A stretch of 64,000 nucleotides of DNA, from contig NC_057925.1 of assembly GCF_018873765.1 (NCBI RefSeq), positions 2,744,927 through 2,808,926 on the forward strand. Reading direction: 5' to 3'. The translations under genes were made by a program, and so were the position numbers. Below the pieces are notes generated by a model. The model made no database searches. It saw only the letters and a list, made by a program, of their open reading frames with translations, and was not told the origin of the DNA. Shown piece by piece: positions 29,479 to 63,384 of the stretch (positions within the stretch are counted from its first letter, which is position 1; each line of letters begins with the position of its first letter). The stretch is from Telopea speciosissima (lineage: Eukaryota; Streptophyta; Magnoliopsida; Proteales; Proteaceae).

Positions 29479-29760
29479 TTTCTTGTCTACTCTCTCCTCT
29501 TCAACCTTCTTCAATTGCTGATTGACAATCCAGAAAACAAACAAAATACATAAAAAGGTACCAAATCTTTTTGGGGTTTTCTCTTCTCTTCCCACTGAAA
29601 CTTCAAACTCTGAGAACCCCAAAAGCCAAAGAAAGGAGAGGGAGAGAGAGAGGGAGTTGACAAATGCTGACTGGAGAGAGGCCAACAGACACCTTAACGA
29701 AATAGACTTCCTCGGAAATGACGAATACGGAAAGGCCAGCAGGTGACAGCAGAGACACTT
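29479..29760 (-). promoter_or_regulatory. 5' UTR and proximal promoter of LPPD
   Basis: CT-rich (on the minus strand) leader sequence with the ctctccctctctctctccc run at 29635-29655 lies directly upstream of the ATG. An upstream in-frame extension has no family similarity, so the start at 29478 is preferred. Confidence 0.4.
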
Positions 29761-31720: not shown

Positions 31721-31729
31721 ATTCCTATA

Positions 31730-32945: not shown

Positions 32946-33960
32946 GAGAAGAATGCTCCTATTGTCTTTGTCTTTCCTACTCAACTCATGCCTAGTGGAG
33001 ACTGATCCTAGTCTTGGTTTTACTCCTCCGTCCTCGATCTCGTTCTCTAACTGTGTTTGGTTTCTTCAGATGTTTCATAGTTTCCACTGCCATGACTTCA
33101 ACACAGAGAGGAAGAGAAGGAGACGGAGGAGAGAAAACACATGAGAAAAAATGGAAATCCGAAGTATAAAAAAGCATCCAAGTGATAGTTTAGGGTCTTT
33201 CCTACTCAACTCATGCCCAGTGGAGACTGATCCTAGTCTTGATTTTACTCCTCTCCGTCCTCGATCTCGTTCTCTAATTGTGTTTGGTATCTTCAGATGT
33301 TTCATAGTTTCCATAATTTGGGGTAAGAACATCACAGAAACAAGATGAGTAGAAGGAAAATCTGCCATTATTTCAACACAGAGAGGAGGAGAAGGAGACA
33401 GAGGAGAGAAAATACATGAGAAAAAATGGAAATCCGAAGTTTAAAAAAAGCATCCAAGTGATAGTTTAGGGTATTTTGAAATTTGAAATTCGAATTTCAA
33501 ATTAAGCATCCAAGTGATAGTTTAGGGTCTTTCCTACTCAACTACTCAACTCATGCCCAGTGGAGACTGATCCTAGTCTTGATTTTACTCCTCTCTGTCC
33601 TCGATCTCGTTCTCTAATTGTGTTGTTTGGTATCTTCAGATGTTTCATAGTTTCTATAATTTGGGGCAAGAACATCACAGAAACAAGATGAGTAGGAGAA
33701 GGAAAATCTATCATGATTTCAACACAGAGAGGAGGAGAAGGAGACCGAGGAAAGAAAATACATGAGAAAAATGGAAATCCGAAGTTTAAAAAAGCATCCA
33801 AGTGAGAGTTTAGGGTATTTTGAAATTTGAAATTCGAATTTCAAATTAAAGCATCAAGTGATATTTTGGGTATTTAGAAATTTGAAATTCGAATTTCAAA
33901 TTAAAGCATCTAGTTTAGGGTATATTTTGAAATTTCAAATTTCATTTTGCCCCTCTTTAT
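32946..33960. pseudogene. Paralogue 1: three rearranged exon A copies with internal inversion
   Basis: Three exon A-like blocks begin near 32977, 33200 and 33531 (cctactcaactcatgcc). The ETDPSLxFTP part and its GTAAG donor read on the plus strand. The adjacent start-codon and 5' flank part (ccatgatttcaacacagag, then gaaatccgaagttta) keeps the minus orientation seen in the array and at 63 kb. The middle of the exon has therefore been inverted and then triplicated. Confidence 0.6.
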
Positions 33961-34050
33961 TTATAACTTTGAAATATTAGTTTAGGATATTTTGAAATTT
34001 CAAATTCGAATTTCAAATTTCATTTTGCCCTTTTTTATTTTTATAACTTT
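33478..34050. repeat. Reiterated AT-rich palindromes
   Basis: The near-palindrome gaaatttgaaattcgaattt-caaatt occurs at about 33478, 33821, 33876 and 33990. A related piece lies at 63187, beside another exon A copy. Confidence 0.7.
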
Positions 34051-34265
34051 GAAATATTTTTCTCTTTTTTTCCGGAAAAACGGATAATGATCCTCCCAGT
34101 TCTTTAATCTGGCAATTCCAGGCAATGCCACCTTCAATGCATAACACGTAGCACAAACAGATCAAATGGTCAAAAATGATTTGCACCATTTCATGCTCTA
34201 CCAACCCGTTTTACTTACCTGATCCGAGAAACTCAATTAGCACTGCCGTTCCTGTCGAACTCAAC

Positions 34266-41006: not shown

Positions 41007-41516
41007 CAGTGCACTGCACTTGAGAGGATAAAAATTCGAGTTGGATGTGTCTCCGTCTAACAGGCCTTGTCGCTTGAACACTAAAGGCCTCATCCCTTGG
41101 GTCCTTTAACATGTGACCATCAGCCCCTCAAACCCAACCCCATCTTTGTGTGTGTGTGGCCGTGACCTTTAAACAAAATCCTAATGCATTCCTATCTATA
41201 TAACACCGTACTTTCTTACCGCTGCCTATTGGAGACATGGTAAAGTTTATTTGTTCGTGGTCCAGTGCACTGCACTTGAGAGGATAAAAATTCCAGTTGG
41301 ATGTGTCTCCGTCTAATAGGCCTTGTCGCTTGAACACTAATAGGCCTCATCCCTTGGGTCCTTTAACATGTGACCATCAGCCCCTCAAACCCAACTCCAT
41401 CTTTGTGTGTGTGTGGCCGTGATCTTTAAACAAAATCCTAATGCATTCCTATCTATATAACACCGTACTTTCTTACCGCTGCCCATTGGAGACATGGTAA
41501 AGTTTATTTGTTCGTA
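41007..41516. repeat. Two-copy tandem duplication, 256-bp period
   Basis: The block starting gtgcactgcacttgagagg (41009) recurs at 41265 and stays nearly identical through gtaaagtttatttgttcg, ending about 41257 and 41514. Confidence 0.9.
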
Positions 41517-43469: not shown

Positions 43470-43830
43470 AAGAAGTGGTTCGATCAATGAACAAGAGAAT
43501 CTATCCCTCTTGTTCAATTGTGATATAGAAGAGAACCCGGTCGATCCCCTCCATCATCTTCAAACTGCACTAAATCAATCTACATCTTTGTTTTGCCGCA
43601 TCTAACGAAATACCACGGTCAAAGTGAATATAGACATTCACAACTTTAACCAAGCCAAAATGATAGTACTGTATATTATCCGTTCTCTGAACGCCAAGAT
43701 TAGCCATACATTGAAGGCTTATCATCCTCACCAGTCACCAGTGCGTCTGATGCAGGTTCTTGTGACCCAAACTGCTTCAACACCATAAAATACCTAATCA
43801 AGGTGAGTCCAATACTCTGTCATAAAAAAA
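43470..43830 (-). pseudogene. Exon D region (C-terminal domain) of the array gene
   Basis: Minus-strand sequence encodes QYYHFGLVKVVNVYIHFDRG, ISLDAAKQRCRLI, a TAG, then CSLKMMEGIDRVLFYITIEQ and a stop at 43501-43503. Compared with the open copy at 32.26 kb the internal TAG replaces Gln. An upstream acceptor (atgacag near 43821) is followed by SIGLTLIRYFMVLKQFG in another frame. The betabeta-like VxIHF...ITIEQ pattern resembles the C-terminal cytosolic domain of CDF transporters, by eye only. Confidence 0.5.
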
Positions 43831-43925: not shown

Positions 43926-44154
43926 CACTAGAGCAGATCCATAATATGGATCCTTGATTCCTTGTTAGCTTAGCCACTCCAGCACATATCAAACTAAACG
44001 AATCCAACGTCATATCCAAAATCGTATCAGCATAAAATAGATCAATCTCTGTACTAACAAGATGAAGCGGATACAACAACAACAGTCTCGCCCCCTTGAG
44101 GGTAATCAAAATGCCAAAAACCTCTTTTCGGTTTCCGCCGTCCAACACAGAAGC
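43926..44154 (-). CDS. Exon C of the array gene (constant downstream exon)
   Basis: Open from an acceptor TTTGTAG (before 44154) to a GTAAGC donor (after 43926), 229 nt. Read in the phase left by exon B (phase 0) it encodes ASVLDGGNRKEVFGILITL, then a hydrophobic STEIDLFYADTILDMTLDSF-SLICAGVAKL and NQGSILWICSS. Phase compatibility with exon B1 and intact splice signals indicate it follows B1 in the gene. A degraded copy lies at 32.86-32.95 kb. It appears once, in contrast to the 16 A-B pairs. Confidence 0.5.
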
Positions 44155-45733
44155 CTACAAACACAATTTATTTGTTTTATAACATTAGAAACAGAAAGTT
44201 TGAATCTAGAAAAGATACTGATGAACATATTAAATAGCATATATGCGCAGTATATTGGAACTTCCAACTGTGATACTAACACTGAGTTTCAACTCTTATG
44301 TGTTGTCATGTAATCTTTATAAATAATTGCAAAACATTGTCAATTATTAGTTCTTTTGGAAGGCATTTATATGCTGATATGTGTAGCACAGTAGCAGTGT
44401 AGGTCATAGTTTGAAGGGTCTGATTTTAGTGTATAAATTCTAGTGGAAGACTTAAAATTTATCAATCTAACAGGGTGCACAGGGCCAGTAGAGCATATAT
44501 TGGAAGCAACATAGAGAAGATAGAACAAGCTCAAAATCAAAAAGAAGAAACACCACAGAAACAAGTAAAGAATTGAAACCAGCTTGCTTTTTTTGGCAGC
44601 GAAGTACAAATGAAGGAGAGTGATCAGGGATTTGTTTCTTCATACAGAGACTGTTTACCTTTCCTTCTTGAAGGTGAGATTCAGGGAGAGGACTGGAAAT
44701 TTAACCTTTAAACATTGTTAATCCTGAGGAAAACTGTGAAGTGAGAATAAAGAAAGATGATTGGATTATACCTGGAACTTCAAAGACAACATAAGCCAAC
44801 AGCAAATAATATCAACATTATCTATTAGCACTTTCCTACAGAAAACATGTAAGAACTAGACTACAAGGCAGGCATTTTGCTATAAAATCTCTTATGTAAA
44901 TACCCACAATGCAAACAACGATGAAGCATGGAAACAAAAAATGGAAAGAAACCTATTTAAAAAATCATTATTTGAAAAAATAGAAGAATACAAGATTAGA
45001 TAATGAAGTATAAAACGTTTAGTTAATCCAATACATTTATTCCATAGTTTATAAATGGAATGGTGCTAAAATAAATGATTTTACATCATTGCAATTCAAA
45101 GAGGATAACTGCATCTATATTCAATCTCAATGGGGCAGCCATCAAAAGAGGATAAGCTCAATTAAGCTAAAAAATCGTGAGATAACCAAATGGTATTCAA
45201 AACAAGAGAATATTGGAAGTATTAGATGCTAAAATTGAAACTTGAAACTGGATCAAATCCAAACTCAACAGGCATTCAAGTCTAAGAAGAATACTTGGTC
45301 GAATTGCATTGTGACCACATATATTACAGCTGAACATTTATAGAACATGAATCATGAGTTTAATAAATTTATAAGGGAAAATTTCCTGCCAAAACTACTT
45401 GGAACCAATTAAGACTAGTGGCCGGATTACTGCAAGGCCTCTTATGCTGCACCAAAAGAAAAAAGGGGAGAGAGAAAGAGAGAGAGGAAAAAGAAAGCCT
45501 ATTCAAAGTTCAAACTGGAGTAATTGCTCTGTCACAGTACACAAATTTCGATTTTATTCAAAATCAGGAAAGGAAAAGTTGGTGTACGATCAAAAAAAAC
45601 ATTTGTAAATTCTGAAATGAACCTTTCCAATTGCCTTATGATTTTTAGAATCATGAGGCAAGCAATGATTTTGAAAATCACGTAGATCACCAAAACAGAA
45701 TAATATGAGCAAAGAAAAATATGAAATTTGTAC
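44155..45733 (-). other. Intron between exons B1 and C
   Basis: 1.58 kb without confident exons. A minus-strand hydrophobic frame at 44367-44609 (LFLWCFFFLILSLFYLLYV) could be an unrecognised membrane exon but lacks clear splice sites. Confidence 0.4.
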
Positions 45734-46388
45734 CTTGTCCTGTATTACTCCAATAACCTTTTCGGCTACGAGGATTGACATGTAGATCACCAAAACAGAG
45801 ACAACTGAAATCACGCCAACGAATACAAAATTTGTTCCTGAAGGACCACTTCTATCGCTGAGCATCACCATCAATAGCGGATGAATAGTGAAGATCGAAA
45901 GAGCTGTAGGGGCGAGCATAGCCAACGATCTAATTTGCAGCGCTCCGATGATCTCTCCCACCATTACAATCACATTTATAACCAAAGCCGAATAGTTCAG
46001 TTTCTTTTTTGTGAGTATTTCACCCTCAAGACGCTGCAGCTCAGCCTTTCTCTCTTCCTCAGTCAAAAGTTGGAGCAGATCCGCTCTCTGGTTGTACAAG
46101 AGCTCACAGTCAGTGCCTCCTCTTGGAGATAAAACAATCTTACTTTAGATTCTAGTCGAATGAGCGAAAATAAAGAGGAAACGGTTAAAAGAGATTGTTC
46201 TTACCGAAGATCATCAAAATTATGGAGGATGTGAAGATCCTGAACATACTAGGAGCACGAGGTCGAGGAGAGAGAGGAGTAAACTCCAGGCTAGGATTAG
46301 GATCAGTATCCTCTAGAAAAAATTCAAAAGAACGATTACCCTCTTCTCTGATTTCTTCACCAAGCGCAACATTAGCAGGAGAAGCCAT
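45734..46388 (-). CDS. Array unit U1: intact exons A and B, next to exon C
   Basis: Exon A 46388-46205 (61 codons plus 1 nt; ATG giving MASPANVALGEEIREEGN) has a GTAAG donor. Exon B to 45734 has its usual acceptor AG displaced to the following AG of the GAG run, 3 nt later, which keeps frame. B is open for 129-130 codons (CELLYNQRADLLQLL, then EEERKAELQRLEGEILTKKK and hydrophobic segments) and ends with donor GTACAA in phase 0, matching exon C. The protein has an acidic N-terminus, a charged helix and three to four predicted membrane helices. A CDF-like signature is suggested by EIIGALQIRSLAML. As the only intact unit adjoining exon C it is the best candidate for the expressed parent gene. 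Confidence 0.55.
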
Positions 46389-46650
46389 GATTTCAGCACG
46401 AACAGAGAGGAGAAGGAGATGAAGGACAGAAAGAGCGGGAGAGAAAAATGGAAATCCCAGGTTTAACGAATCCAAATTATAGTTTAGGGGAGGAAGTGCT
46501 CGGATGACATCGGCTCTTCCTAAATCTCTCTTCTCCCTCTTCTCCTTTCACCTTAGTTTGTAAAGCTTACGCTTTGTTCCTGTTAGTTGGTATCAGAGCT
46601 TTAGTACGCTCTTAGAATTGTTCACACTAGAGCTTGGGTAATGTGCTTAC

Positions 46651-47304
46651 CTTTCCCTGTATTACTCCAATAACCTTTTTGGCTACGAGGACTGACATGA
46701 GATCACAAAAACAGAAACAACTGAAATCACGCCAATGAATATAAAGTTTATTCCCGAAGGACCACTTCTCTCGCTGAGCATCACCAATAATAGCGGATAA
46801 ATAGTGAAGATCGAAAGAGCTGTAGAGGCGAGCATAGCCAATGATCTAATTTGCAGTGCACCGATGATCTCTCCCACCATTACAATCACATTTATAACCA
46901 TAGCCAAATATTTCAGTTTCTTTTTAGTGAGTATTTCACACTCAAGACGCTGTAGCTCAGCCTTTCTCTCTTCCTCAGTCAAAAGTTGGAGCAGACCCTC
47001 TTTTTGGTTGTACAAGAGCTCACAGTCAGTGCCTCCTCCTGGAGATAAAACAATCTTACTTTAGATTCCAGTCAAATGAGCAAAAATAAAGAGGAAACGG
47101 TTAAAAGAGAATGTTCTTATCGCAGATCATCGAAATTATGGAGGATGTGAAGATCCCGAACATACTAGGAGCACGAGGTCGAGGAGAGAGAGGAGTAAAC
47201 TTCAGGCCAGGATCAGGATCAGTATCCTTTAGAAAGAATTCAAAAGATCGATTATCCTCTTCTCTGATTTCTTCACCAAGCGCAGAACGAGCAGGAGAAG
47301 CCAT
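46651..47304 (-). pseudogene. Array unit U2
   Basis: Exon A 47304-47121 is open, but its donor reads GATAAG instead of GTAAG. Exon B (47038-46651) is 388 nt with a 1-nt deletion near 46697 that ends the frame early. Confidence 0.8.
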
Positions 47305-47566
47305 GATTTCAGCACGAACAGAGTGGAGAAGGAGATGAAGGAGAGAAAGAGCGGGAGAGAAAAATGGAAATACCAGGTTTAACGAATCTAAATTACAGTT
47401 TAGGGGAGGATGTTCTCGGATGACATCGGCTCTTCTTAAATCTCTCTTCTCCCTCTTCTCCTTTCACCTTAGTTGGTAAAGCTTTCGCTTTGTTCCTCTT
47501 AGTTGGTATTAGAGCCTTAGTACCCTCTTAGAATTGCTCACACTAGAGCATGGGTAATTTGCTTAC

Positions 47567-48221
47567 TTTTCCCGGTATTACACCAATAACCTTTTCGGCT
47601 ACGAGGACTGACATGTAGATCACAAAAACAGAGACAACTGAAGTCACACCAATGAATATAAAATTTGTTCCTGAGGGACCACTTCTCTCGCTGAGCATCA
47701 CCATCAATAGCGAATGAATAGTGAAGATCGAAAGAGCTGTAGAGGTGAGTATAGCCAACGATCTAATTTACAGCGCTGCGATGATCTCTCCCACCATTAC
47801 AATCACATTTATAACCAAAGTCGAATATTTCAATTTCTTTTTGGTGAGTATTTCACCCTCAAGACACTGCAGCTCAGCCTTTCTCTCTTCCTCAGTCAAA
47901 AGTTGGAGCAGATCCACTCTCTGGTTGTACAAGAGCTCACAATCAGTGCCTCCTCCGAGAGATAAAACAATCTTACTTTAGATTCTTGTCGAATCAGCAA
48001 AAATAAAGAGAAAATGGTTAAAAGAGATTGTTCTTACTGTAGATCATCAAAATTATGGAGGATGTAAAGATCCCGAACATACTAGGAGTACGAGGTCGAG
48101 GAGAGAGAGGAGTAAACTCCAGGCCAGGATCAGGATCAGTATCCTTTAGAAAGAATTCAAAAGAACGATTAACCTCTTCTCTGATTTTTTTACCAGGCGC
48201 AGAACGACCAGGAGAAGCCAT
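47567..48221 (-). pseudogene. Array unit U3
   Basis: Exon A (48221-48038) is open with a GTAAG donor. Exon B (47955-47567) has a TAA at 47768-47770 replacing Gln of the GALQIRS block, and its acceptor AG is changed (next AG 3 nt on). Confidence 0.8.
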
Positions 48222-48483
48222 GATTTCAGCAAGAACAGAGAGGAGAAGGAGATGAAGGAGAGAAAGGGCGAAAGAGAAAAATGAAAATCCCAGGTTTAAC
48301 GAATCCAAATTATAGTTTAGGGGAGGAAGTTCTCGGATGACATCGACTGTTCTTAAATCTCTCTTCTCCCTCTTCTCCTTTCACCTTAGTTTGAAAAGCT
48401 TCTGCTTTGTTCCTTTTAGTTGGTATCAGAGCCTTAGTACGCTCTTAGAATTGCTCACACTAGAGCCTGGGTAATTTGCTTAC

Positions 48484-49138
48484 CTTTCCCTGTATTACTC
48501 CAATAACCATTTCGGCTACGAGGACTGACATGTAGATCACAAAAACATAGTTAACTGAAATCACGTCAATGAATATAAAATTTATTCCTGATGGACCACT
48601 TCTCTCGCTGAGCATCACCATCAATAGTGGAAGAATAGTGAAGATCGAAAGAGCTGTAGAGGCGAGCATAGCCAACAATCTAGTTTGCAGTGCTCCGATG
48701 ATCTCTCCCACCATTACAATCACATTTATAACCAAAGCCGAATATTTCAATTTCTTTTTGGTGAGTATTTCACCCTCAAGACGATGCAGCTCAGCCTTTC
48801 CCTCTTCCTCAGTTAAAAGTTGGAGCAGACCCGCTCTTTGGTTGTACAAGAGCTCACAGTCAGTGCCTACTCTTGGAAATAAAATAATCTTACTTTAGTT
48901 TTCAGTCGAATGAGCAAAAATAAAGAGAAAACGGTTAAAAGAGATTGTTCTTACCGCAGATCATCGAAATTATGGAGGATGTGAAGATCCCGAACATACT
49001 AAGGGCACGAAATCGAGGAGAGAGAGGAGTAAACTCCAGGCCAGGATCAGGATTAGTATCCTCTAGAAAAAATTCAAAAGAACGATTACCCACTTCTCTG
49101 ATTTCTTCACCAGGCGCAAAACGAGCAGGAGAAGCCAT
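48484..49138 (-). CDS. Array unit U4: intact exons A and B
   Basis: Exon A 49138-48955 (MASPARFAPGEEIREVGN) with GTAAG donor. Exon B 48872-48484 is open throughout (YNQRAGLLQLLTEEEGKAEL; ALQTRLLAMLASTALSIF) and ends in GGGAAAG followed by GTAAGC. The acceptor is shifted 3 nt as in U1. Joined length is about 190 codons, phase 0 at the end, compatible with exon C. There is no private downstream exon, so a product would need splicing across U1-U3 or would end in the intron. Confidence 0.45.
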
Positions 49139-49400
49139 GATTTCAGCACGAACAGAGAGGAGAAGGAGATGAAGGAGAGAAAGAGCGAGAGAGAAAAATA
49201 AAAATCCCAGGTTTAACGAATCCAAATTATAGTTTAGCGGAGGAAGTGGTCGGATGATCTCGGCTCTTCTTAAATCTCTCTTCTCTGTCTTCTCCTTTCA
49301 CCTTTATTTGTAAGGCTTCCGCTTTGTTCCTTTTAGTTGGTATCAGAGCCTTAGTACGCTCTTAAAATTGCTCACACTAGAGCTTGGATAATTTGCTTAC

Positions 49401-50055
49401 TTTTCCATGAATTATTCCAATAACCTTTTCGGCTATTAGGACTGACATGTAGATCACAAAAATAGAGACAATTGAAATCACGCCAATGAATATAAAATTA
49501 ATTCCCGAGGGACCACTTCTCTCGCTGAGCATCACCATCAATAACGGATGAATAGTGAAGATAGAAAGAGCTGTAGAGGCGAGCATAATCAACGATCTAA
49601 TTTGCAGCGCTCTGATGATCTTTCCCACCATTACAATCACATTTATAACCAAAGCCGAATATTTCAGTTTCTTTTTGATGAGTATTTCACCCTCAAGACG
49701 CTGCAGCTCAGTCTTTCTCTCTTCCTCAGTCAAAAGTCAGAGCAGACCCGCTATCTGGTTGTACAAGAGCTCACAGTCGGCGCCTCCTCCTGGAGATAAA
49801 AAAATCTTACTTTTCACTCCAGTCGAACGATCAAAAATAAAGAGAAAATGGTTAAAAGAGATTGTTCTTACTGTAGATCATCAAAATTATGGAGGATGTG
49901 AAGATCCCAAACATATTAGGAGCATGAGGTCGAGGAGAGAGAGCAGTAAACTCTAGGGCAAGATCAGGATCAGTATCCACTAGAAAGAATTCAAAAGAAC
50001 GATTACCCTCTTCTCTGATTTCTTCACCAGGCGCAGAACGAGTCGGAGAAGCCAG
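49401..50055 (-). pseudogene. Array unit U5
   Basis: The exon A start is changed ATG to CTG at 50055. Exon B (49789-49401) has TGA at 49737-49739 in place of Gln. Confidence 0.8.
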
Positions 50056-50316
50056 GATTTCAGTACGAGCAGAGAGGAGAAGGAGATGAAGGAGAGAAAG
50101 AGCGGGAGAGAAAATGGAAATCCCAGGTTTAACGAATCCAAATTATAGTTTAGGGGAGGAAGTGCTCGGATGACATCGGCTCTTCTTAAATCTCTCTTAT
50201 CCCTCTTCTCCTTTCACCTTAGTTTGCAAAGCTTCCGTTTTGTTCCTTTTAGTTGGTATCAGAGCCTTAGTACGCTCTTAGAATTGCTCACACTAGAGCT
50301 TGGGTAATTTGCTTAC

Positions 50317-50971
50317 CTTTCCCTGTATTACTCCAATAACTTTTTCGGCTACGAGGACTGACATGTAAATCATAAAAACAGAAACAACGAAAATCACGCC
50401 AGTGAATATAAAATTTATTCTCGAAGGACCACTTCTCTTGCTGAGCATCATCATCAATAGTGGATGAATAGTGAAGATCGAAAGAGCTGTAGAGATGAGC
50501 ATAGCCAATGATCTAATTTACAACGCTCCGATGATCTCTCCCACTATTGCATTCACATTTATAACCAAAGTTGAATATTTCTGTTTCGTTTTGGTAAGTA
50601 TTTCACCCTCAAGATGCTACAGGTCAGTCTTTCTCTCTTCCTCAGTCAAAAGTTGGAGCAGATCCGCTCTCTGTTTGTATAATAGCTCACAGTCAGTGCC
50701 TCCTCCTGGAGATAAAATAATCTTACTTTAGATTTCAGTCGAATGAGCGAAAATAAAGAGAAAATGGTTACAAGAGATTGTTCTTACCGTAGATCATCAA
50801 AATTATGGAGGATGTGAAGATCCCGAACATACTAGGAGCACGAGGTCGAGGAGGGAGAGGAGTAAACTCCAGGCCAGGATCAGGATCAACATCCTCTAGA
50901 AAGAATTCAAAAAAATGATTACCCTCTTCTCTGATTTCTTCAACAGGCACAGAACATTCAGGAGAAGCCAA
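50317..50971 (-). pseudogene. Array unit U6
   Basis: The exon A start is ATG to TTG (50971). Exon B (50705-50317) carries the shared TAA (50518-50520). Confidence 0.8.
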
Positions 50972-51233
50972 GATTTCAGCACGAACTGAGAGGAGAAGGA
51001 GATGAAGGAGAGAAAGAGCGGGAGAGAAAAATGGAAATCCCAGGTTTAACGAATCCAAATTATAGTTTAGGGGAGGAAGTGCTCGGATGACATTGGCTCT
51101 TCTTAAATCTCTCTTCTCCCTCTTCTCCTTTCACCTTAGTTTGTAAAGCTTCCGCTTTGTTCCTTTTAGTGGGTATCAGAGCCTTAGTACGCTCTTAGAA
51201 TTGCTCACACTAGAGATTGGGTAAGTTGCTTAC

Positions 51234-51889
51234 CTTTCCCTGTATTACTCCAATAATCTTTTTGGCTATAAGGACTGACATGTTGATCACAAAAAAAGAG
51301 ACAACTGAAATCACGCCAATGAATATAAAATTTATTCCCGAAGGACCACTTCTCTCGCTGAGCATCACCATCAATAGTGGATGAATAGTGAAGATCGAAA
51401 GAGGTGTAGAGGATAGCATAGCCAACGATCTAATTTGCAGCGCTCCGATGATATCTCCCACCATTACAATCACATTTATAACCAAAAGCCAAAAATTTCA
51501 GTTTCTTTTTTGTGAGTATTTCACCCTCAAGACGCTGCAGCTCAACCTTTCTCTCTTCCTCAGTCAAAAGTTGGAGTAGATCTGCTCTATGGTTGTACAA
51601 GAGCTCACAGTCAGTGCCTCCTCCTGGAGATAAAACAATCTTACTTTAGATTCCAGTCGAATGAGCAAAAATAAAGAGAAAAAGGTTAAAAGAGATTATT
51701 TTTACCACAGATCATCGAAATTATGGAGGATGTGAAGATCCTGAACATACTAGGAGCACGAGGTCGAGGAGAGAGAGAAGTAAACTCTAGGCCAGGATTA
51801 GGAGCAGTATCCTCTAGAAAGAATTCAAAACAACGATTACCCTCTTCTCAGATTTCTTCACCAGGCGCAGAACGAGCAGGGGAAACCAT
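51234..51889 (-). pseudogene. Array unit U7
   Basis: Exon A has TGA at 51848-51850 (Arg codon). Exon B is 390 nt (1-nt insertion in an A-run near 51485). It shares sequence variants (gaaagaggtgtagagg, ttgatcacaaaaaaagagac) with U10. Confidence 0.8.
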
Positions 51890-52151
51890 GATTTCAGCAC
51901 GAACAAAGAGGAGAAGGAGATGAAGGAGAGAAAGGGCGAGAGAGAAAAATGGAAATCCCAGGTTTAACGAATCCAAATTATAGTTTAGGGGAGGAAGTAC
52001 TCGGATGACATCGGCTCTTCTTAAATCCCTCTTCTCCCTCTTCTCCTTTCACCTTAGTATGTAAAGCTTCCGCTTTGTTGCTTTTAGTTGGTATCAAACC
52101 CCTAGTACGCTCTTAGAATAGCTCACACTAGAGCTTAGGTAATTTGCTTAC

Positions 52152-52739
52152 CTTTTCTTGTATTACTCCAATAACCTTTTCGGCTACGAGGAAGGACCAC
52201 TTCTCTCGCTGAGCATCACCAGCAATAGTGGAAGAATAGTGAAGATCGAAAGAGCTGTAGAGGCGAGCATAGCCAACGATCTGATTTACAGCGCTCCGAT
52301 GATCTCTCTCACCATTACAATCACATTTATAACCAAAGCCGAATATTTTAGTTTCTTTTTGGTGAGTATTTGACCCTTAAGACGCTGCAGCTCAGCCTTT
52401 CTCTCTTCCTCAGTCAAAAGTTGGAGCAAATCCGCTCTCTGGTTGTACAAGAGCTCACAGTCAGTGCCTCCTCCTGGAGATAAAATAATCTTACTTTAGA
52501 TTCCAGACGAATGAGCAAAAATAAAGAGGAAACGGGTAAAAGAGATTGTTCTTACCGCAGATCATCGAAATTATGGAGGATGTAAAGATCGCGAACATAC
52601 TAGGTGCACGAGGTCGAGGATAGAGAAGAGTAAACTCCAGGCCAGGATCAGGATCAGTATTCTCTAGAAAGAATTCAAAACAACGATTACTCTCTTCTTT
52701 GATTTCTTCACCAGGCGCAGAACGAGCAGGAGAAGCCAT
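52152..52739 (-). pseudogene. Array unit U8 (shortened)
   Basis: Exon A (52739-52556) is open. Exon B is only 322 nt owing to a 67-nt deletion near 52192, and has the TAA at 52286-52288. Confidence 0.8.
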
Positions 52740-53001
52740 GATTTCAACATGAACAGAGAGGAGAAGGAGATGAAGGAGAGAAAGAGCGGGAGAGAAAAAT
52801 GGAAATCCCTGGTTTAACGAATCCAAATTATAGTTTAGGGGAGGAAGTGCTCGGATGACATCAGCTCTTCTTAAATCTTTCTTCTCCCTCTTCTCCTTTC
52901 ATCTTAGTTGGTAAAGCTTCCGCTTTGTTCCTTTTAGTTGGTATCAGAGCCTTAGTACCCTCTTAGAATTTCTCACACAAGAGCTTGAGTAATTTGCTTA
53001 C

Positions 53002-53656
53002 CTTTCCCTGTATTACTCCAATAACCATTTCGGCTACGAGGACGGACATGTAGATCACAAAAATAGAGACAACTCAGATCACGCAAATGAATATAAAATT
53101 TATTTTCGAAGGACCACTTCTCTCGCTGAGCATCACCATTAGTAGCAAATGAATAGTAAAGATCGAAAGAGCTGTAGAGACGAGCATAGCCAACGATCTA
53201 ATTTACAGCGCTCCGATGATCTCTCCCACCATTACAATCACATTTATAACCAAACCCAAATATTTCAATTTCTTTTTAGTGAGTATTTCACACTCAAGAC
53301 GCTGCAGCTCAGCCTTTTTCTCTTCCTCAGTCAAAAGTTGGAGCAGACCCTCTTTCTGGTTGTACAAGAGCTCACAGTCAGTGCCTCCTCCTGGAGATAA
53401 AATAATCTTACTGTAGATTCCAGTCGAATGAGCGAAAATAAAGAGGAAAAGGTTAAAAGAGATTGTTTTTACCGCAGATCATCGAAATTATGGAGGATGT
53501 GAAGATCCTGAACATACTAGGAGCACGAGGTCGAGGAGAGAAAAAAGTAAACTTTAGGCCTGGATCAAGATCAGTATCCTCTAGAAAGAATTCAAAAGAA
53601 CGATTACCCTCTTCTTTGATTTCTTCATCAGGCGCAGAACAAGCAGGAGAAGCCAT
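53002..53656 (-). pseudogene. Array unit U9
   Basis: Exon A (53656-53473) is open with a GTAAA donor. Exon B (53390-53002) has the TAA at 53203-53205. Confidence 0.8.
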
Positions 53657-53918
53657 GATTTCAGCACGAACAGAGAGGAGAGGGAGATGAAGGGGAGAAA
53701 GAGCAGGAGAGAAAAATGGAAATCCCAGGTTTAACGAATCCAAATTACAGTTTAGGGGAGGAAGTGCTCGGATGACATCGGCTCTTCTTAAATCTCTCTT
53801 CTCCCCCTTCTCCTTTCACCTTAGTTTGTAAAGCTTCCGCTTTGTTCCTTTTAATTGGTATCAGAGCCTTAGTACGCTCTTAGAATTGCTCACACTAGAG
53901 TTTAGGTAAGTTGCTTAC

Positions 53919-54575
53919 CTTTCCCTGTATTACTCCAATAACCTTTTCGGCTACGAGGACTGACATGTTGACCTCAAAAAAAGAGACAACCGAAATCACG
54001 CCAATGAATATAAAATTTGTTCCTGAAGGACCAATTCTCTCGCTGACTATCACCATCAATAGTGGATGAATAGTGAAGATCGAAAGAGGTGTAGAGGCGA
54101 GCATAGCCAACGATCTGATTTGCAGCGTTTCGATGATCTCTCCCACCATTACAATCACATGTATAACCAAAAGCAAAAAATTTCAGTTTCTTTTTTGGTG
54201 AGTATTTCACCCTCAAGACGCTGCAGCTCAACCTTTTTCTCTTCCTCAGTCAAAAGTTGGAGCAAAGCCACTCTCTGGTTGTACAAGAGCTCACAGTTAG
54301 TGCCTCCTCATGGAGATAAAATAATCTTACTTTAGATTCCAGTCGAATGAGCGAAAATAAAGAGAAAATGGTTAAAAGATATTGTTCTTACCGCAGATCA
54401 TCGAAATTATGGAGGATGTGAAGATCCCGAACATACTAGGCGCACGAGGTCGAGGAGAGAGAGGAGTAAACTCAAGGCAAGGATCAGAATCAGTATCTTT
54501 TACAAAGAATTCAAAAGAACGATTACCCACTTCTTTGATTTCTTCACCAGGTGCAGAACGAGCAGGAGAATCCAT
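53919..54575 (-). pseudogene. Array unit U10
   Basis: Exon A (54575-54392) is open. Exon B is 391 nt (net +2, A-run near 54175) and out of frame; the acceptor CCAG has become CCATGAG. Sister of U7 by shared variants. Confidence 0.8.
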
Positions 54576-54834
54576 GATTTCAGCACGAACAGAGAGAAGG
54601 AGATGAAGGAGAGAAAGAGCGGGAGAAAAAAATAGAAATCTCAGGTTTAACGAATCCAAATTATAGTTTAGGGGAGGAAGTGCTCGGATGACATCGGCTC
54701 TTCTTAAATCTCTTTTCTCTCTCTTCTCCTTTCACCTTACTTTGTAAACCTTCCACTTTGTTCCTTTTAGTTGGTATCAGAGCCTTAGTAGGCTCTTAGA
54801 ATTGCTCACACTAGAGCTTGGGTAATTTACTTAC

Positions 54835-55489
54835 CTTTCCCTGTATTAATCCAATAACTTTTTCGGCTACGAGGACTGACATGTAGATCACCAAAATAGA
54901 GATAACTAAAATCACGCCAACGAATATAAATTTTATTCCCGAAGGACCACTTCTCGCGCTGAGCATCACCATCAATAGTGGATGAATAGTAAAGATCGAA
55001 AGAGCTGTAGTGGCGAGCATAGCCAACGATCTAATTTGTAGCGCTCCGATGATCTCTCCCACCATTACAATCACATTTATAACCAAAGCTGAATATTTCA
55101 GTTTCTTTTCTGTGAGTATTTCATATTCAAGATGCTGCAGCTCAACCTTTCTCTCTTCCTCAGTCAAAAGTTGGAGGAGATCCGCTCTCTAGTTGTACAA
55201 GAGCTCACAGTCAGTGCCTCCTCCTGGAGATAAAACAATCTTAGTTTAAATTCCAGTCGAATGAGCAAAAATAAAGAGAAAAAGGTTAAAAGAGATTATT
55301 CTTACCGCAGATCATCGAAATTATGGAGGATGTGAAGATCCCGAACATACTAGGAGCACGAGGTCGAGGAGAGAGAGGAGTAAACTCAAGGCCAGGATCA
55401 GGATCAGTATCCTTTAGAAAGAATTCAGAAGAACGATTATCCTCTTCTCTGATTTCTTCACCAGGCGTAGAACTAGCAGAAGAGGCCAT
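54835..55489 (-). pseudogene. Array unit U11
   Basis: Exon A (55489-55306) is open. Exon B has TAG at 55189-55191 replacing Gln of YNQ; the rest of B is open. Confidence 0.8.
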
Positions 55490-55751
55490 GATTTCAGCAA
55501 GAACAGAGTGGAGAAGGAGATGAAGGAGGGAAAGAGCGGGAGAGAAAAATGGAAATCCCAGGTTTAACGAATCCAAATTATAGTTTAGGGGAGGAAGTGC
55601 TCGGATGACATCGGCTCTTCTTAAATCTCTCTTCTCCCTCTTCTCCTTTCACCTTAGTTTGTAAAGCTTCCGCTTTGTTCCTTTTAGTTGGTATCAGAGC
55701 CTTAGTACGCTCTTACAATTGCTCACACAAGAGTTTGGGTAATTTACTTAC

Positions 55752-56404
55752 CTTTCCCTGTATTACTCTAATAACCTTTTCGGCTACGAGGATTGACATG
55801 TAGATCACAAAAACAGAGACAATTGAAATCACGAAAATGAATATAAAATTTGTTCCCGAAGGACCACTTCTCTCTGAGCATCACCATCAATAGTGGATGA
55901 ATAGTGAAGATCGAAAGAGCTGTAGAGGCTAGCATAGCCAACGACCTAATTTGCAGTGCTCCGATGATCTCTCCCACCATTACAATCACATTTATAACCA
56001 AAGCCGAATATTTTAATTTCTTTTTGGTGAGTATTTCACCCTCAAGACACTACAGCTTAGCCTTTCTGTCTTCCCCAATCAAAAGTTGGAGCAGATCCGC
56101 TCTCTGGTTGTACAAGGGCTCACAGTCAGTGCCTCCTCCTGGAGATAAAATAATCTTACTTTAGATTCTAGAAGAATGAGCAAAAATAAAGAGAAAATGG
56201 TTAAAAGAGATTGTTCTTACCGCAGATCATCGAAATTATGGCTGATGTGAAGATCCCGAACATACTAGGAGCACGAGGTCAAGGAGAGAGAGGAGTAAAC
56301 TCCAGGCCAGGATCAAAATCAATTTCCTCTAGAAAGAATTCAAAAGAACGATTACCCTCTTCTCTGATTTCTTCACCAGGCGCAGAACGACCAGGAGAAG
56401 CCAT
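55752..56404 (-). pseudogene. Array unit U12
   Basis: Exon A has TGA at 56279-56281 (Arg CGA to TGA). Exon B is 387 nt and frameshifted. Confidence 0.8.
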
Positions 56405-56666
56405 GATTTCAGGGAGAATAGAGAGGAGAAGGAGATGAAGGAGAGAAAGAGTGGGAGAGAAAAATGAAAATCCCCGGTTTAATGAATCCAAATTATAGTT
56501 TAGGGGAGGAAGTGCTCGGATGACATCGGCTTTTCTTAAACCTCTCTTCTCCCTCTTCTCCTTTTACCTTAGTTTGTAAAGCTTTCGCTTTGTTCCTTTT
56601 AGTTGGTATCAAAGCCTTAGTACGCTCTTAGAATTGCTCACACTAGAGCTTGGGTAATTTGTTTAA

Positions 56667-57321
56667 TTTTTTTTTATATTACTTCAATAAATTTTTCGGC
56701 TACGAGGACTGACATGTAGATCACAAAAATAGAGACAACTGAAATCACGCTAATGAATATAAAATTTGTTCCTGAAGGACCACTTATCTCGCTGAGCATC
56801 ACCATCAATAGCGGATGAATAGTAAAGATCAAAAGAGCTGTAGAGGCGAGTATATCCAACAATCTAATTTGTAGCGCTCCGATGATCTCTCCCACCATTA
56901 CAATAATATTTATAAGCAAAGCTGAATATTTCAGTTTCTTTTTTGTGAGTATTTCACCCTCAAGACGCTGCAGCTCAACCTTTCTTTCTTCCTCAGTCAA
57001 AGGCTGAGCAGATCTGCTCTCTGGTTATACAAGAGCTCACAGTCAGTGCCTCCTCCTGGAGATAAAACAATCTTACTTCAGATTCCAGTCGAATGAACAA
57101 AAATAAATAGGAAACGGTTAAAAGAGATTATTCTTATCGCAGAGCATCGAAATTATGGAGGATGTGAAGATCCCGAACATACTAGGAGCACGAGGTCGAG
57201 GAGAGAGAGAAGTAAACTCCAGGCCAGGATCAGGATCATTTTTCTCTAGAAAGCATTGAAAAGAATGATTACCCTCTTCTCTGATTTTTTCACCAGGGGC
57301 AGAACGAGTAGGAGAAGCCAT
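56667..57321 (-). pseudogene. Array unit U13
   Basis: Exon A (57321-57138) is open but its donor is GATAAG. Exon B has a small deletion near 57001 and its own donor is lost (gtttaatttt on the plus strand). Confidence 0.75.
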
Positions 57322-57583
57322 GATTTCAGCACGAACAGAGAGGAGAAGGAGATGAAGGAGAGAAAGAACGGGAGTGAAAAATAAAAATCCCAGGTTTAAC
57401 GAATCCAAATTATAATTTAGGAGAGGAAGTGCTCAGATGACATCTGCTCTTCTTAAATCTCTCTTCTCCCTCTTCTCCTTTCACCTTAGTTTGTAAAGCT
57501 TCCGCTTTGTTCCTTTTAGTTGGTATCAGAGCCTTAGTACACTCTTAGAATTGCTCACACTTGAGCTTGGTTAATTTGCTTAT

Positions 57584-58239
57584 CTTTTCCTTTAATACTC
57601 CAATAACCTTTTCGGCTACGTGGACTGACATGGAGTTCATAGAAACAGTGACAACTAAAATCACGCCAATGAATATAAAATTTATTTCCGAAGGACCACT
57701 TCTCTCGCTGAACATCACCATCAAAAGCGGATGAATAATGATGATCGAAAGAGCTGTAGAGGCGAGCATAGCCAATGATTTAATTTATAGCGCTCCGATG
57801 TTCTCTCCCACCATTATAATCGCATTTATAACCAAAGCCAAATATTTGAGTTCCTTTTTTGTGAGTATTTCACCCTCAAGACGCTGCAGCTCAGCTTTTC
57901 TCTCTTCCTCAGTCAAAAGTTGGAGCAGATCCGCTCTTTGGTTGTACAAGAGCTCACAGTCAGTGCCTCCTCCTGGAGATAAAATAGTCTTACTTTAGAT
58001 TCCTGTCGAATGAGAAAAAAAAAAAGAGAAAACGGTTAAAAGAGATTGTTTTTACCGTAGATCATCAAAATTATGGAGGATGTGAAGATCCCGAACATAC
58101 TCGGAGCACGAGGTCGAGGAGAGAGAGGAGTAAACTCCAGGCCAAGATCAGGATCATTGTCCTCTAGAAAGAATTCAAAAGAACGATTACCCTCTTCTCT
58201 GTTTTCTTCACCAGGCGCAGAACGAGCAGGAGAAGCCAT
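57584..58239 (-). pseudogene. Array unit U14
   Basis: Exon A (58239-58056) is open. Exon B (57972-57584) has TAA at 57785-57787 and a GATAAG donor. Confidence 0.8.
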
Positions 58240-58501
58240 GATTTCAACAGGAACAGAGAGGAGAGGGAGATGAAGGAGAGAAAGAGCGGGAGAGAAAAAT
58301 GAAAATCCCAGGTTTAACGAATCCAAATTATAGTTTAGGGGAGGAAGTGCTCAGATGACATCGGCTCTTCTTAAATCTCTCTTCTCCCTCTTCTCCTTTC
58401 ACCTTAGTTTGTAAAGCTTCCGCTTTGTTCCTTATAGTTGGTATCAGAGCCTTAGTACGCTCTTAGAATTGCTCACACTAGAGCTTGGGTAATTTGCTTA
58501 C

Positions 58502-59156
58502 CTTTCCCTGTATTACTCCAATAATCTTTTCGGCTACGAGGACTGACATGTAGATCACAAAAATAGAGACAAATGAAATCACACCAATAAATATAAAATT
58601 TGTTCCCGAAGTACCACTTCTCTCGCTGAGCATCACCATCAATAACAGATGAATAGTGAAGATCGAAAGAGCTGTAGGGGCGAGCATAGCCAACGATCTA
58701 ATTTACAGCGCTCCGATGATCTTTCCCACCATTACAATCACATTTATAACCAAAGCTGAATATTTCAGTTTCTTTTTTATGAGTATTTCACCCTTAAGAC
58801 GCTGCAGTTCAGCCTTTCTCTTTTGCTCAATCAAAAGTTGGAGCAGATCCGCTCTCTGGTTGTACAAGAGCTCACAGTCAGTGCCTCCTCTTGGAGATAA
58901 AACAATCTTACTTTAGATTCCACTCGAATGAGTGAAAATAAAGAGGAAACGGTTAATAGAGATTGTTCTTACCGCAGATCATCGAAATTATGGAGGATGT
59001 GAAGATCCCGAACATACTAGGAGCACGAGGTCGAGGAGAGAGAGGTGTAAACTCCAGGCCAGGATCAGGATCAGTATCTTCTAGAAAGAATTAAAAAGAA
59101 TGATTACCCTTTTCTCTGATTTATTTACCAGGCACAGAACGAGTAGGAGAAGCCAT
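58502..59156 (-). pseudogene. Array unit U15
   Basis: Exon A has TAA at 59091-59093 (Glu codon). Exon B has the TAA at 58703-58705. Confidence 0.8.
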
Positions 59157-59418
59157 GATTTCAGTATGAACAGAGAGGAGAAGGAGATGAAGGAGAGAAA
59201 GAGCGGGAGAGAAAAATGGAAATCTCAGGTTTAACGAATCCAAATTATAGTTTAGGGGAGGAAGTACTCGGATGACATCGGCTCTTCTTAAATCTCTCTT
59301 CTCCCTGTTCTCCTTTCACCTTAGTTTGTAAAGCTTCCGCTTTGTTCCTTTTAGTTGGTATCAGAGCCTTAGTACGCTTTTAAAATTGCTCACACTAGAG
59401 ATTGGGTAATTTGCTTAC

Positions 59419-60071
59419 CTTTTCCTGTATTACTCTAATAACCTTTTCGGCTACGAGGACTGACATGTAGATCACAAAAGTAGAGACAACTAAAATCACG
59501 CCAATGAATATAAAATTTATTTTCGAAGGACCATTTCTCTCGCTGAGCATCACCACCAATAGCGGATGAATAGTGAAGATCAAAAGAGCTGTAGGGGCGA
59601 GTATAGCCAACGATCTAATTTGTAGTGCTCCGATGATCTCTCCCACCATTACAATCACATTTATAATCAAAGTCGAATATTTTAGTTTCTTTTTTGTGAG
59701 TATTTCACCCTCAAAACGCTGCAGCTCAGCCTTTCTCTCTTCCTCAGTCAAAAGTTGGAGTAGATCCGCTCTCTGGTTGTACAAGAGCTCACAGTCAGTG
59801 CCTCCTCCTGGAGATAAAACAATCTTACTTTAGATTCCAGTCGAATGAGTGAAAATAAAGAGGAAACGATTAAAAGAGAATGTTCTTATCGCAGATCATC
59901 AAAATTATGGAGGATGTGAATATCCCGAACATACTAGGAGCACGAGGTCGAGGAGAGAGGAGTAAACTTCAGGCCAGGATCAGGATCAGTATCCTTTAGA
60001 AGGAATTCAAAAGATCAATTATCCTCTTCTCTGATTTCTTCACCAAGCACAGAACGAGCAGGAGAAGCCAT
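59419..60071 (-). pseudogene. Array unit U16 (last copy)
   Basis: Exon A is 182 nt (2-nt deletion in the GA-run near 59955) with a GATAAG donor. Exon B (59807-59419) is fully open. Confidence 0.8.
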
Positions 60072-60340
60072 GATTTCAGCACGAACAGAGTGGAGAAGGA
60101 GATGAAGGAGAGAAAGAACGGGAGAGAAAAATAGAAATACCAGGTTTAACGAATCCAAATTATAGTTTAGGGGAGGAAGTTCTTGAATGACATCGGCTCT
60201 TCTTAAATCTCTTTTCTCCCTCTTCTCTTTTCACCTTAGTTTGTAAAGCTTCCACTTTGTTCCTTTTAGTTGATATTAGAGCCTTAGTACGCTCTTAGAA
60301 TTGCTCACACTAGAGCTTGGATAATTTGCTTATGTTCTAA

Positions 60341-61810
60341 GAATAGAAGCGATGATCTATCTGATACTAACTAAACTAAATAAACTAACTAATAAAGTCA
60401 GTTCCATCATTGAATGGAAAACATCTGCCATCATTGAATGTTGTTGCACACTCTAGTGCGAGAAGCCACCTCTCACCTTTATCTTCGGGGTTTGGAACTT
60501 GTGATGCAGCCCATATTTTTATGGCATATGCGGAAAAATAGAAACATAGGTTAAGGAAACAAAGTAGGAACAAAGGTTGAAAACAACAATCACAACAGCC
60601 CCCTGCTATGGAGGTGAGATCAACTCTGGTGAATTATCACCTTGGTAAAATAACAAAGTTAAGGAAACAAAGTAGGAACAAATGTTGGAATTAGAAGCTA
60701 GCAGGAAACAGACATCATAGTAGACCCTCTCCTCTGCTATGGATTTAATCAATTTCTATATCTACAACCAATTCAGACGTGTGTAGCACAGTAGCAGTAT
60801 AAGTCATAGTTTGTCCTTCATTTTCCTCTACTTTTTTTCTAATTTTAGGAATTTGAGTAAGGAAATAACTTCCTTGTTATTATGCTAAAAGTTTATCTTG
60901 AAATTTCGTAGTCAGTGTGTCATGGATTTAATGCAGTACTGATCCCGAATTAGTGAAATCTAGTGGGAGATCAGCGTGCGACAAGATTGCAGGAAAAAAA
61001 AAAGATAAACCAGATTTGAAAAAGAAAAATAACGAATAACAAAATAATAATAGCTCTAAAGGGTCTGATTTTAGAGTGTAAGAGTTCTACAAAGTGTGAT
61101 TAAAATCTGATGGTCTGATTCACACTTATGGAGTAATCCTACTTGAGGAAGGATGTCTTAATAATTACAGAAGCGAAGGGCCCCTACTACTTGGGGAAAG
61201 ATGTCTTAACAATTACAAAAATGATGGGCAGAAAGGGGTTCAAATCATAGTGATCAATTAAGGTTCTAACAGTTGAGTAAGTGGTAATAGGAACAGAACA
61301 GCTAAAGCAATTTGAAAATCTAAAAATTTGACAAATCCTAGTTGAAATAGGAAAAACTAGTATTCGATGGGAAGGATAGGATTTTTTTTTGTGGGAGGGG
61401 AGGAGGAGGGGGTGATTTGTTTTGATACTGAAGCTGAAATAGAAAAGAAAGACACAGATAAAAAATCATCAGCTGATCAGCAGGGCTAGAATCACCACCA
61501 GTACCTAATCCGGAATCATCAAATCACCACAGTGAGGAGCATTCTGAATCACCATAGAACTAAATGCAAAAACCAATCTTACAAACTTATGTAAAAGACT
61601 AAAAAACAGATTAAAACTAAAAAAAAAAGAAAGTAAAGGCTTAAATCGATCTTAAATTGATTAGCTAAGTTAAACTAACTAGGAAACTGAAATAAGGCTG
61701 GACTCTTAGAGACCCTATTCCAGCCTAAAACTGAAACACATAATACCAAATTAAATAAAAAATAGAACTCTAACTAAACTAACTAATAAAACCAATTCCA
61801 TATTCATTCT
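60341..61810. other. Flank of the array, homologous to the 31.7-kb paralogue
   Basis: 60430-60770 repeats 31730-32060 (cattgaatgttgttgcacac, ttatggcatatgcgg, taaggaaacaaagtaggaac). The remainder is AT-rich and holds no recognised gene. Confidence 0.6.
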
Positions 61811-61811
61811 T

Positions 61812-62540
61812 CTTACCCATAATTTAGAGGAGGAAGTGCTCGGATGATATCGGCTCTTCTTAAATCTCTCCTCCCTCTTCTCCTTTCACCTTAGTTTGTA
61901 AAGCTTTCGCTTTATTCTTTTTAGTTGGTATCAGAGCCTTAGTACGCTCTTAGAATTGCTCACATCAGAGCTTGAGTAATTTGCTTATGTTCTAAGAATA
62001 GAAGCGACGATCTCTCTGATACTAACTAAACTAACTAATAAAGTCAATTTCATATTCATTCTTCCTACCCATATTTTAGAGGAAGTGCTCGGATGACATC
62101 GGCTATTCTTAAATCTCTCTTCCCCCTCTTCTCCTTTCGCCTTAGTTTGTAAAGCTTCTGCTTTATTCATTTTAGTTGGTATCAGAGTCTTAGTACGCTC
62201 TTAGAATTGCTCACACCAGAGCTTGGGTAATTTGCTTATGTTCTAAGAATAGAAGCGACGATCTATCGGGTACTAACTAAATTAACTAATGAAGCCAATT
62301 CCATATTCATTATTCCTACCCATATTTTAGAGGAGGAAGTGCTCGAATGACATCGGCTCTTCTTAAATCTCTATTCTCCCTCTTCTCCTTTCGCCTTAGT
62401 TTGTAAAGCTTTCGCTTTATTCCTTTTAGTTGGTATCAGAGTCTTAGTACGCTCTTAGAATTACTCACACTAGAGCTTCGATAATTTGCTTATGTTCTAA
62501 GAATAAAAGCGACGATCTATCTAATACCAACTAAAAGAAA
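61812..62540. repeat. Three tandem copies of the array spacer without exons
   Basis: Blocks containing gaggaagtgctcgg at about 61829, 62079 and 62333 (period ~250 bp) repeat the array spacer, including ttggtatcagag and a tail (gttctaagaatagaagcgac, ctgatactaacta) that also follows U16 at 60335-60385. Exons A and B are absent. Confidence 0.85.
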
Positions 62541-62812
62541 CAAAGCGAAAACTTTACAAACTAAGGCGAAAGGAGAACCATAATCCATAAGAATATATGA
62601 TCTGTATGAGGTTACTCTGTTTTCAGTCGGACATGCTGATTTTTCAACCTCCAGTTCCTTGTTTTCTCATCATTTCAAATTTAAGGATAAAGAATCTTCT
62701 CATCTCACAGAGACAACCAAACAACGAGAAAATAGCATAGCCAAGAAATTCGTACAGACAACCAAACACAGTTAAAAAAGAAGAAAACGATTAAAAAAGC
62801 TTTGTGATGTTC

Positions 62813-63175
62813 TTACCAAAAATCATGGAAATTATGAAGCATTTGAAGACGATTAAAGGAGCTTGTGATGTTCTTACTACAGATCATGGAAACTATGAAG
62901 CATCTAAAGACACCAAACACAGTAGGAGAACGAGGTCGAGGAGGGAGAGGAGTAAAATCAAGACCAAGACCAGTTCCACTGGCATGAGTTGAGTTGGAAA
63001 CACAGTAGGAGCATTTTCCTCTTCCCTGATTTCTTGACCAAGCACAAAAGCAGAACAAGCAGAAGAAGGAGAATTTGCCATGATTTCAACATCGAACACA
63101 TAGAGGAGAAGGAGATGGAGGAGAGAAAGAGCAGGAGAAAAAATGGAAATCCCAAGTTTAAAGCATCCAACTGAT
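62813..63175 (-). pseudogene. Paralogue 2: diverged exon A in native orientation
   Basis: The ATG at 63081 gives MANSPSSACSAFVLGQEIRE. A different frame then encodes SGTGLGLDFTPLPPRPRSP and FRCFIVSMIC before a donor near 62878 (GTAAG). The two frames show a frameshift, and the exon is about 20 nt longer than array copies. The last ~60 bp of the exon with its donor is duplicated at 62813-62850. It preserves the unrearranged arrangement used to recognise the inversion at 33 kb. Confidence 0.6.
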
Positions 63176-63384
63176 AGTTTAAGGTATTTTGAAATTTGAA
63201 ATTCTTCATTTTGCCCTGCTTTTTTTTTTTTTTTTTTAACTTTGAAATATTTTTATTCTTTTTTTCCGATAACCTTGAAACCATTTTGCCTTCACTTATA
63301 TGTTAAAAACTTAGGAAAAACATGTTAAAATAATGCAGATGAGATCCAAATACTTATTAATCAGCATTTGGTGCTTTATATATA

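Follow-up and report, generated by a model that had tools for sequence, protein, structure and literature searches.

A sixteen-unit array of a two-exon gene fragment in Telopea speciosissima, probably an old partial-gene tandem amplification

Introduction

Tandem arrays built from partial gene duplicates are known, examples being AFPIII in an Antarctic eelpout and the chimeric Sdic of Drosophila, which is present in about ten copies (PMC3449122, in excerpt). Terminal-repeat retrotransposons in miniature (TRIMs), among them Cassandra, also occur in tandem arrays, with up to 12 repeats per array in the excerpted text of PMC7215508. Here we describe an array from the waratah Telopea speciosissima in which the first two exons of a small predicted four-exon gene, together with a spacer, are repeated 16 times head to tail. 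It lies in a stretch of 64,000 nucleotides of contig NC_057925.1 (assembly GCF_018873765.1, positions 2,744,927 to 2,808,926), referred to below as the window. Satellite arrays may arise by saltatory amplification, in which a burst of near-identical copies is followed by mostly independent decay.

As with AFPIII and Sdic, part of a gene has been copied head to tail into an array; in the excerpted text those copies are described as functional genes, whereas the waratah units are all damaged and show no coding constraint (PMC3449122). Arrays of Cassandra and other TRIMs resemble the waratah array in their short regular units with sequence like a primer-binding site (PBS), but the waratah unit consists mainly of intron-containing gene sequence, runs antisense to the PBS-like motif and has no copy resembling a long terminal repeat (LTR) at both ends (PMC7215508 and PMC4717578, both in excerpt). 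The array fits partial-gene tandem duplication, a known kind, and fails a defining feature of TRIM and LTR arrays. Saltatory satellites are alike in their burst and mostly independent decay, but the waratah array was seeded by two exons, has only 16 copies and stays at its parent gene. No plant array of like make-up was found among the matches listed in a search that covered part of the literature. The best reading of the locus is a partial-gene duplication that multiplied in a burst and is now a largely frozen, satellite-like array; we put the probability that it is an old partial-gene tandem amplification, now dead, at about 0.8.

Results and discussion

Layout and extent of the array

A BLAST search of the window with exon A, exon B and the spacer located all three in 16 successive units, and together with alignment of the units this placed the array on the minus strand at 45727-60332. 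The sixteen-fold tandem amplification proposed in the first-pass annotation is thereby confirmed, as is the composition it gave for the repeat unit: exon A, a short intron, exon B and a fixed spacer. Fourteen units measure 915-918 bp. Unit 8 is only 850 bp owing to a 67-bp deletion within exon B, which BLAST returned there in two pieces, and unit 16 measures 921 bp as bounded. The steady period of 914-919 bp reported earlier therefore holds for most units and breaks down at unit 8. Comparison of the array with itself bore out the expected ladder of about 917 bp, identity at lag 917 being 0.565 over 45727-60332 against 0.277-0.278 in the controls, for which the best lag between 900 and 934 was taken in each of three other 14.6-kb stretches of the window. 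The array is absent from the output of Tandem Repeats Finder, whose longest period here was 500. Because the exons lie on the minus strand, unit 1, at the low-coordinate end, is the unit that adjoins exons C and D.

Arrays of this kind can be difficult to assemble, and we considered a false duplication through assembly error. Every unit, however, differs from the consensus by 3.9-6.8%, with unit 1 the lowest and unit 13 the highest, which makes false expansion by the assembler unlikely; we consider such an error extremely improbable. On the assembly sequence alone, the array may have been collapsed by the assembler. We conclude that the array is a real partial-gene tandem duplication, in which one part of a gene has been repeated in place, head to tail, the membership of exons C and D in that gene being predicted.

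Structure of the gene and its predicted protein

Read on the minus strand, the consensus unit opens with a spacer of 153 nt and a 5' region of 102 nt; exon A (184 nt from the ATG) is then separated by a GT-AG intron of 82 nt from exon B (389 nt), after which comes a GT donor. In unit 1, predicted exon A occupies 46205..46388 (184 nt from the ATG) and predicted exon B 45734..46119, the latter being 386 nt long given a shifted in-frame AG acceptor. Exon C (43926..44154, minus strand) is predicted from splice sites and an open frame, and exon D (43794..43816, minus strand) is a predicted short terminal exon with a stop at its end. Given the shifted acceptor, exons A and B of unit 1 joined to C and D form one open frame. 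Exons C and D had been reported as single copies; within the array gene this is so, yet a decayed relative of D and of the end of C lies at 32444-32939, and both exons are predictions only.

The protein predicted from exons A-D of unit 1 has four hydropathy peaks (1.66-2.69 across 19 residues), of which one falls in exon C and the other three in exon B, and it is only in this respect that the earlier description of a membrane-protein gene is borne out. A Pfam search with the majority-type A-B-C-D protein gave three matches, all under their cut-offs. Our protein searches were limited to candidates that lie within a length range and have short exact words in common with the query. Within that scope, one of 1,176 candidates matched the majority-type protein at E <= 10, a Telopea ClpA-like model (P0001) with 75% identity over 18% of the query, and none of 1,864 candidates was related to any of five exon B translations. 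An Rfam scan of the window returned nothing at gathering thresholds.

Residues 1-49 of the ClpA-like model are 62.7-72.5% identical to exon A of all 16 units. The best matches to the model in the window are less than identical and cover only its start, so it is not encoded there. After its exon A-like first 49 residues it continues as Clp-type sequence with Clp domains. It may represent another exon A copy that has been fused to, or mis-annotated with, a Clp gene.

Founding junction and the 251-bp repeat

All 15 internal joints fall at one place, where ...GGGTAATTTGCTTA runs into CCTTTCCCTGTATTACTCC..., and this points to a single founding duplication that seeded the array. Most joints carry a few point changes relative to this sequence, and the one preceding unit 13 is the most altered. 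On the left of unit 1, exon B gives way to unique sequence (AAATTTGTACCTTGTCC), while on the right of unit 16 the spacer continues into the remainder of a 251-bp repeat, part of which makes up the unit spacer. A unique left edge and a repeat that continues at the right edge form the pattern left by tandem duplication in place. The continuation past unit 16 (60300..60407, plus strand) is probably the original right flank of the array, and three tandem copies of the 251-bp repeat, again sharing part of their sequence with the unit spacer, lie at 61770..62535 (plus strand). AATTTG, followed within 0-2 bases by TA, is present at both parent sites, and inspection by eye suggests that joining may have occurred at the short homology AATTTG(CT)TA.

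Within the spacer and the 251-bp repeat lies a 14-nt motif, TTGGTATCAGAGCC, which resembles the usual initiator-tRNA (tRNA-iMet) primer-binding site of plant LTR elements. At one mismatch or fewer it has 17 matches in the window against 0.01 expected, 14 of them in the array (in 14 of the 16 units) and three in the 251-bp repeats. The array exons are antisense to it. These matches, and the resemblance of the motif to a PBS, would suit a tandem LTR-retrotransposon or TRIM array with a captured gene fragment as its internal part. According to the excerpted texts, plants commonly carry TRIMs and LTR elements in tandem arrays (PMC4717578, PMC11899658), and a gene fragment carried along by a TRIM has been described (PMC13317346). 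Such an array should have LTR copies that alternate with internal parts and bound both ends. Here the sequence to the left of unit 1 (45000-45733) has no match elsewhere in the window and so contains no spacer copy; without a bounding copy at the low-coordinate end, the array does not show the layout of a tandem LTR element. The right border moreover falls inside the 251-bp repeat, the unit has kept its intron, and the exons run in the opposite sense to the PBS-like sequence. We therefore regard an LTR or TRIM origin as unlikely and favour duplication of part of a gene in place.

The last of the three 251-bp repeats is followed by a 58-bp inverted copy of part of itself (62383-62577). The arms of this fold-back are 93% complementary and separated by 79 nt, and it adjoins the PBS-like motif.

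Decay of the units

Each of the 16 units lacks at least one consensus coding or splice feature. Unit 1 (45727..46643, 917 bp), which is joined to exons C and D, has an open frame through exons A and B and has lost the usual AG acceptor of exon B. Unit 2 (46644..47559, 916 bp) has lost the exon A donor and carries a frameshift in exon B; unit 3 (47560..48476, 917 bp) has lost the acceptor and contains one stop; and in unit 4 (48477..49392, 916 bp) the frame is open and the usual acceptor lost. The start codon is missing from unit 5 (49393..50309, 917 bp) and unit 6 (50310..51226, 917 bp), which contain one and two stops, respectively. A frameshift and one stop are present in unit 7 (51227..52144, 918 bp), one stop beside the deletion in unit 8 (52145..52994), and two stops in unit 9 (52995..53911, 917 bp). 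Unit 10 (53912..54827, 916 bp) has lost its acceptor and is frameshifted, unit 11 (54828..55744, 917 bp) has one stop, and unit 12 (55745..56659, 915 bp) has a frameshift and two stops. Unit 13 (56660..57576, 917 bp), the most diverged, has lost both donors and has a frameshift and one stop. Unit 14 (57577..58494, 918 bp) has lost the donor of exon B and has one stop, unit 15 (58495..59411, 917 bp) has lost the acceptor and has three stops, and unit 16 (59412..60332) has lost the exon A donor and is frameshifted in exon A. In total, stop-creating changes affect 11 of the 16 units and frameshifts seven, while the ATG has been lost from two, a donor from four and the usual acceptor from five. 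In units 1 and 4 the usual exon B acceptor is the sole loss, and an in-frame AG lies 3 nt further on; to judge from its position, this AG could replace the lost acceptor.

Relative to the consensus, the coding sequences carry 352 nonsynonymous and 141 synonymous changes, a ratio of 2.50 against a neutral 2.51 +/- 0.23 (observed/expected 0.99). In the neutral control each change was moved randomly to sites of the same base and context; exon B was taken one base short in this test and control, and with its full last codon the synonymous count becomes 144 and the nonsynonymous count is still 352. Stop-creating changes number 16 against 17.1 +/- 3.8 expected, and third-position changes 150 against 160.6 +/- 10.0, so third positions are not enriched. 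Divergence is 5.3% in exon A, 5.5% in exon B, 6.3% in the intron, 3.8% in the spacer and 3.6% in the 5' region, the exons thus being no less diverged than the remainder of the unit.

These results bear on a reading of the locus as an alternative first exon cluster, in which each unit would have its own promoter, ATG, exon A, exon B and donor, and would be spliced to the shared exons C and D. Protocadherin and UGT1A loci are comparators for such clusters. The layout fits, the consensus unit being a 5' region, ATG, exon A, intron, and exon B with a donor, upstream of single exons. Coding constraint is nevertheless absent, and no open frames or splice sites were found to be kept under selection across the units, none of which retains every consensus feature. 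We consider this reading very unlikely beside that of a dead partial-gene amplification. Expression is possible for unit 1, which still adjoins exons C and D; the other 15 units are most likely without function.

Transitions affect 10.0% of CG, 9.5% of CHG, 4.9% of CHH and 1.1% of A/T sites, so that CG and CHG transitions are about ninefold commoner than those at A/T sites. Such an excess is a mark of long-methylated plant DNA, and the spectrum suggests that the array DNA is probably methylated and silenced. On the coding strand G>A exceeds C>T (7.6% of G against 5.4% of C). In unit 6, 7.9% of exon positions are changed against 2.9% outside the exons, the opposite of coding constraint.

Divergence and timing of growth

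Alignment of the 16 units gave pairwise identities of 88.0-93.4% with a mean of 90.9%. Identity does not depend on the distance between units, being 90.81% at lag 1, 90.98% at lag 7 and 90.54% at lag 11. Internal branches make up 4.66% of the length of a maximum-likelihood tree of the units, in which the groupings with the highest ultrafast bootstrap values are units 2+16 (90) and 7+10 (82). Trees were simulated with the observed mutation spectrum and site-rate variation, gene conversion being left out. In these simulations a star gave 2.4% internal branches (1.7-3.0, 12 runs), and block-wise growth, in eight runs each, gave 2.8% (1.7-4.2) when confined to the first 10% of the age of the array, 4.8% (4.0-6.0) for the first 20%, 11.2% (8.0-13.5) for the first 50% and 34.3% (27.6-45.4) for growth over 100%. 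Set against these simulations, the internal branches of the observed tree match growth during about the first fifth of the array's existence.

The first-pass annotation took the high similarity of the units to suggest recent unequal crossing-over or gene conversion, and an array homogenised recently or still by these processes would be consistent with the regular period, with the clustered states common to some pairs and with sharing in excess of a star. The comparison of the units does not support the claim: a mean identity of 90.9% is low for such an array, neighbours are not more alike, and, as the stronger point, the tree is near a star. With about 5% change in each unit, the copies do not count as recent by plant substitution rates. 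Active homogenisation should leave the copies grouped on the tree and closer to each other than independent decay would; this was not seen, though there is some sharing beyond a star. We judge recent or ongoing homogenisation quite unlikely and retain early growth followed by decay.

Several observations weigh against that account, as does the omission of gene conversion from the simulations. Shared states other than C>T and G>A are too numerous for a pure star, which is thereby rejected: they amount to 131 pairs, against star means of 23, 44 and 63 for the three rate models used and a maximum of 92 in 3 x 300 shuffles. The standout pairs are 2+16 and 2+9, with six shared states each, and 7+10, with four. 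This excess implies either structure from an early stage or a degree of exchange later on. The likeness of neighbours is by itself a weak test, since simulated block-wise growth likewise left no neighbour effect. Finally, the low divergence of unit 1 (3.9%) is a possible hint of constraint, though its 19 nonsynonymous and three synonymous changes, few as they are to judge by, indicate no purifying selection of its own. At four sites a single state other than C>T or G>A is found in six or seven scattered units, a pattern that variation already present in the growing array, or early exchange of short tracts, would leave.

Proposed origin of the array

We propose that the array arose where three decayed copies of a small four-exon gene, its exons C and D predicted, lie clustered together. 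In the middle copy, one joining event would have brought the donor end of exon B up against a point within a 251-bp repeat upstream of exon A. Amplification of the resulting 917-bp unit to about 16 copies would have been over after roughly the first fifth of the array's existence, and would have proceeded through a rolling-circle step or through unequal exchange of blocks of several units. Thereafter the array would have undergone little turnover, with no detectable coding constraint, its changes resembling in spectrum those of methylated and probably silenced DNA. A stronger version, in which the array is a frozen record of satellite birth, seems doubtful to us: a two-exon fragment and a retrotransposon-derived repeat would have been amplified in one burst, possibly through a circular intermediate, with near-zero turnover since, making each unit a nearly independent neutral clock.

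Because the copies were made in an early, short phase, copy number is expected to be fixed, or nearly so, between individuals. Given their common start, the lack of visible selection and the little later exchange, the 16 units constitute a replicated natural record of mutation in probably silenced plant sequence. The array shows how a gene fragment and a repeat fragment can seed a satellite-like array beside the parent gene; known gene functions are unchanged by this finding.

Neighbourhood of the array

A decayed and rearranged copy of the array gene lies at 31729..34074 (minus strand), with the 3' flank, exon D, the end of exon C and pieces of exon A. In it, the relatives of the end of C, D and the 3' flank at 32444-32939 were read exon by exon by eye, and at 33002-33815 exon A pieces are inverted against their own 5' region, an arrangement that occurs three times. 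On the other side of the array, 60430..60777 (minus strand) is an 84.5% relative of 31729-32088 and probably represents the 3' flank of a third gene copy, while a decayed exon A copy with its 5' region occupies 62774..63268 (minus strand; exon A relative at 62808-63184). The three 251-bp repeats lie between these two segments. A search of the 64-kb window with exon B gave no match outside the array.

Spliced by eye, a lipid phosphate phosphatase delta gene at 25119-29781 (minus strand) is 99% identical to its match in Telopea speciosissima, 89% to that in Macadamia integrifolia and 83% to that in Protea cynaroides. The matched Telopea phosphatase and the Telopea ClpA-like model may be on the same chromosome. 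The start of a DEAD-box helicase gene (PF00270) lies at 1756-3030 (minus strand), where part of the second exon was recognised; the gene may be truncated, as no further exons were recognised among the listed frames. At 41007-41515 a 257-bp segment is present as a tandem duplicate with 97% identity.

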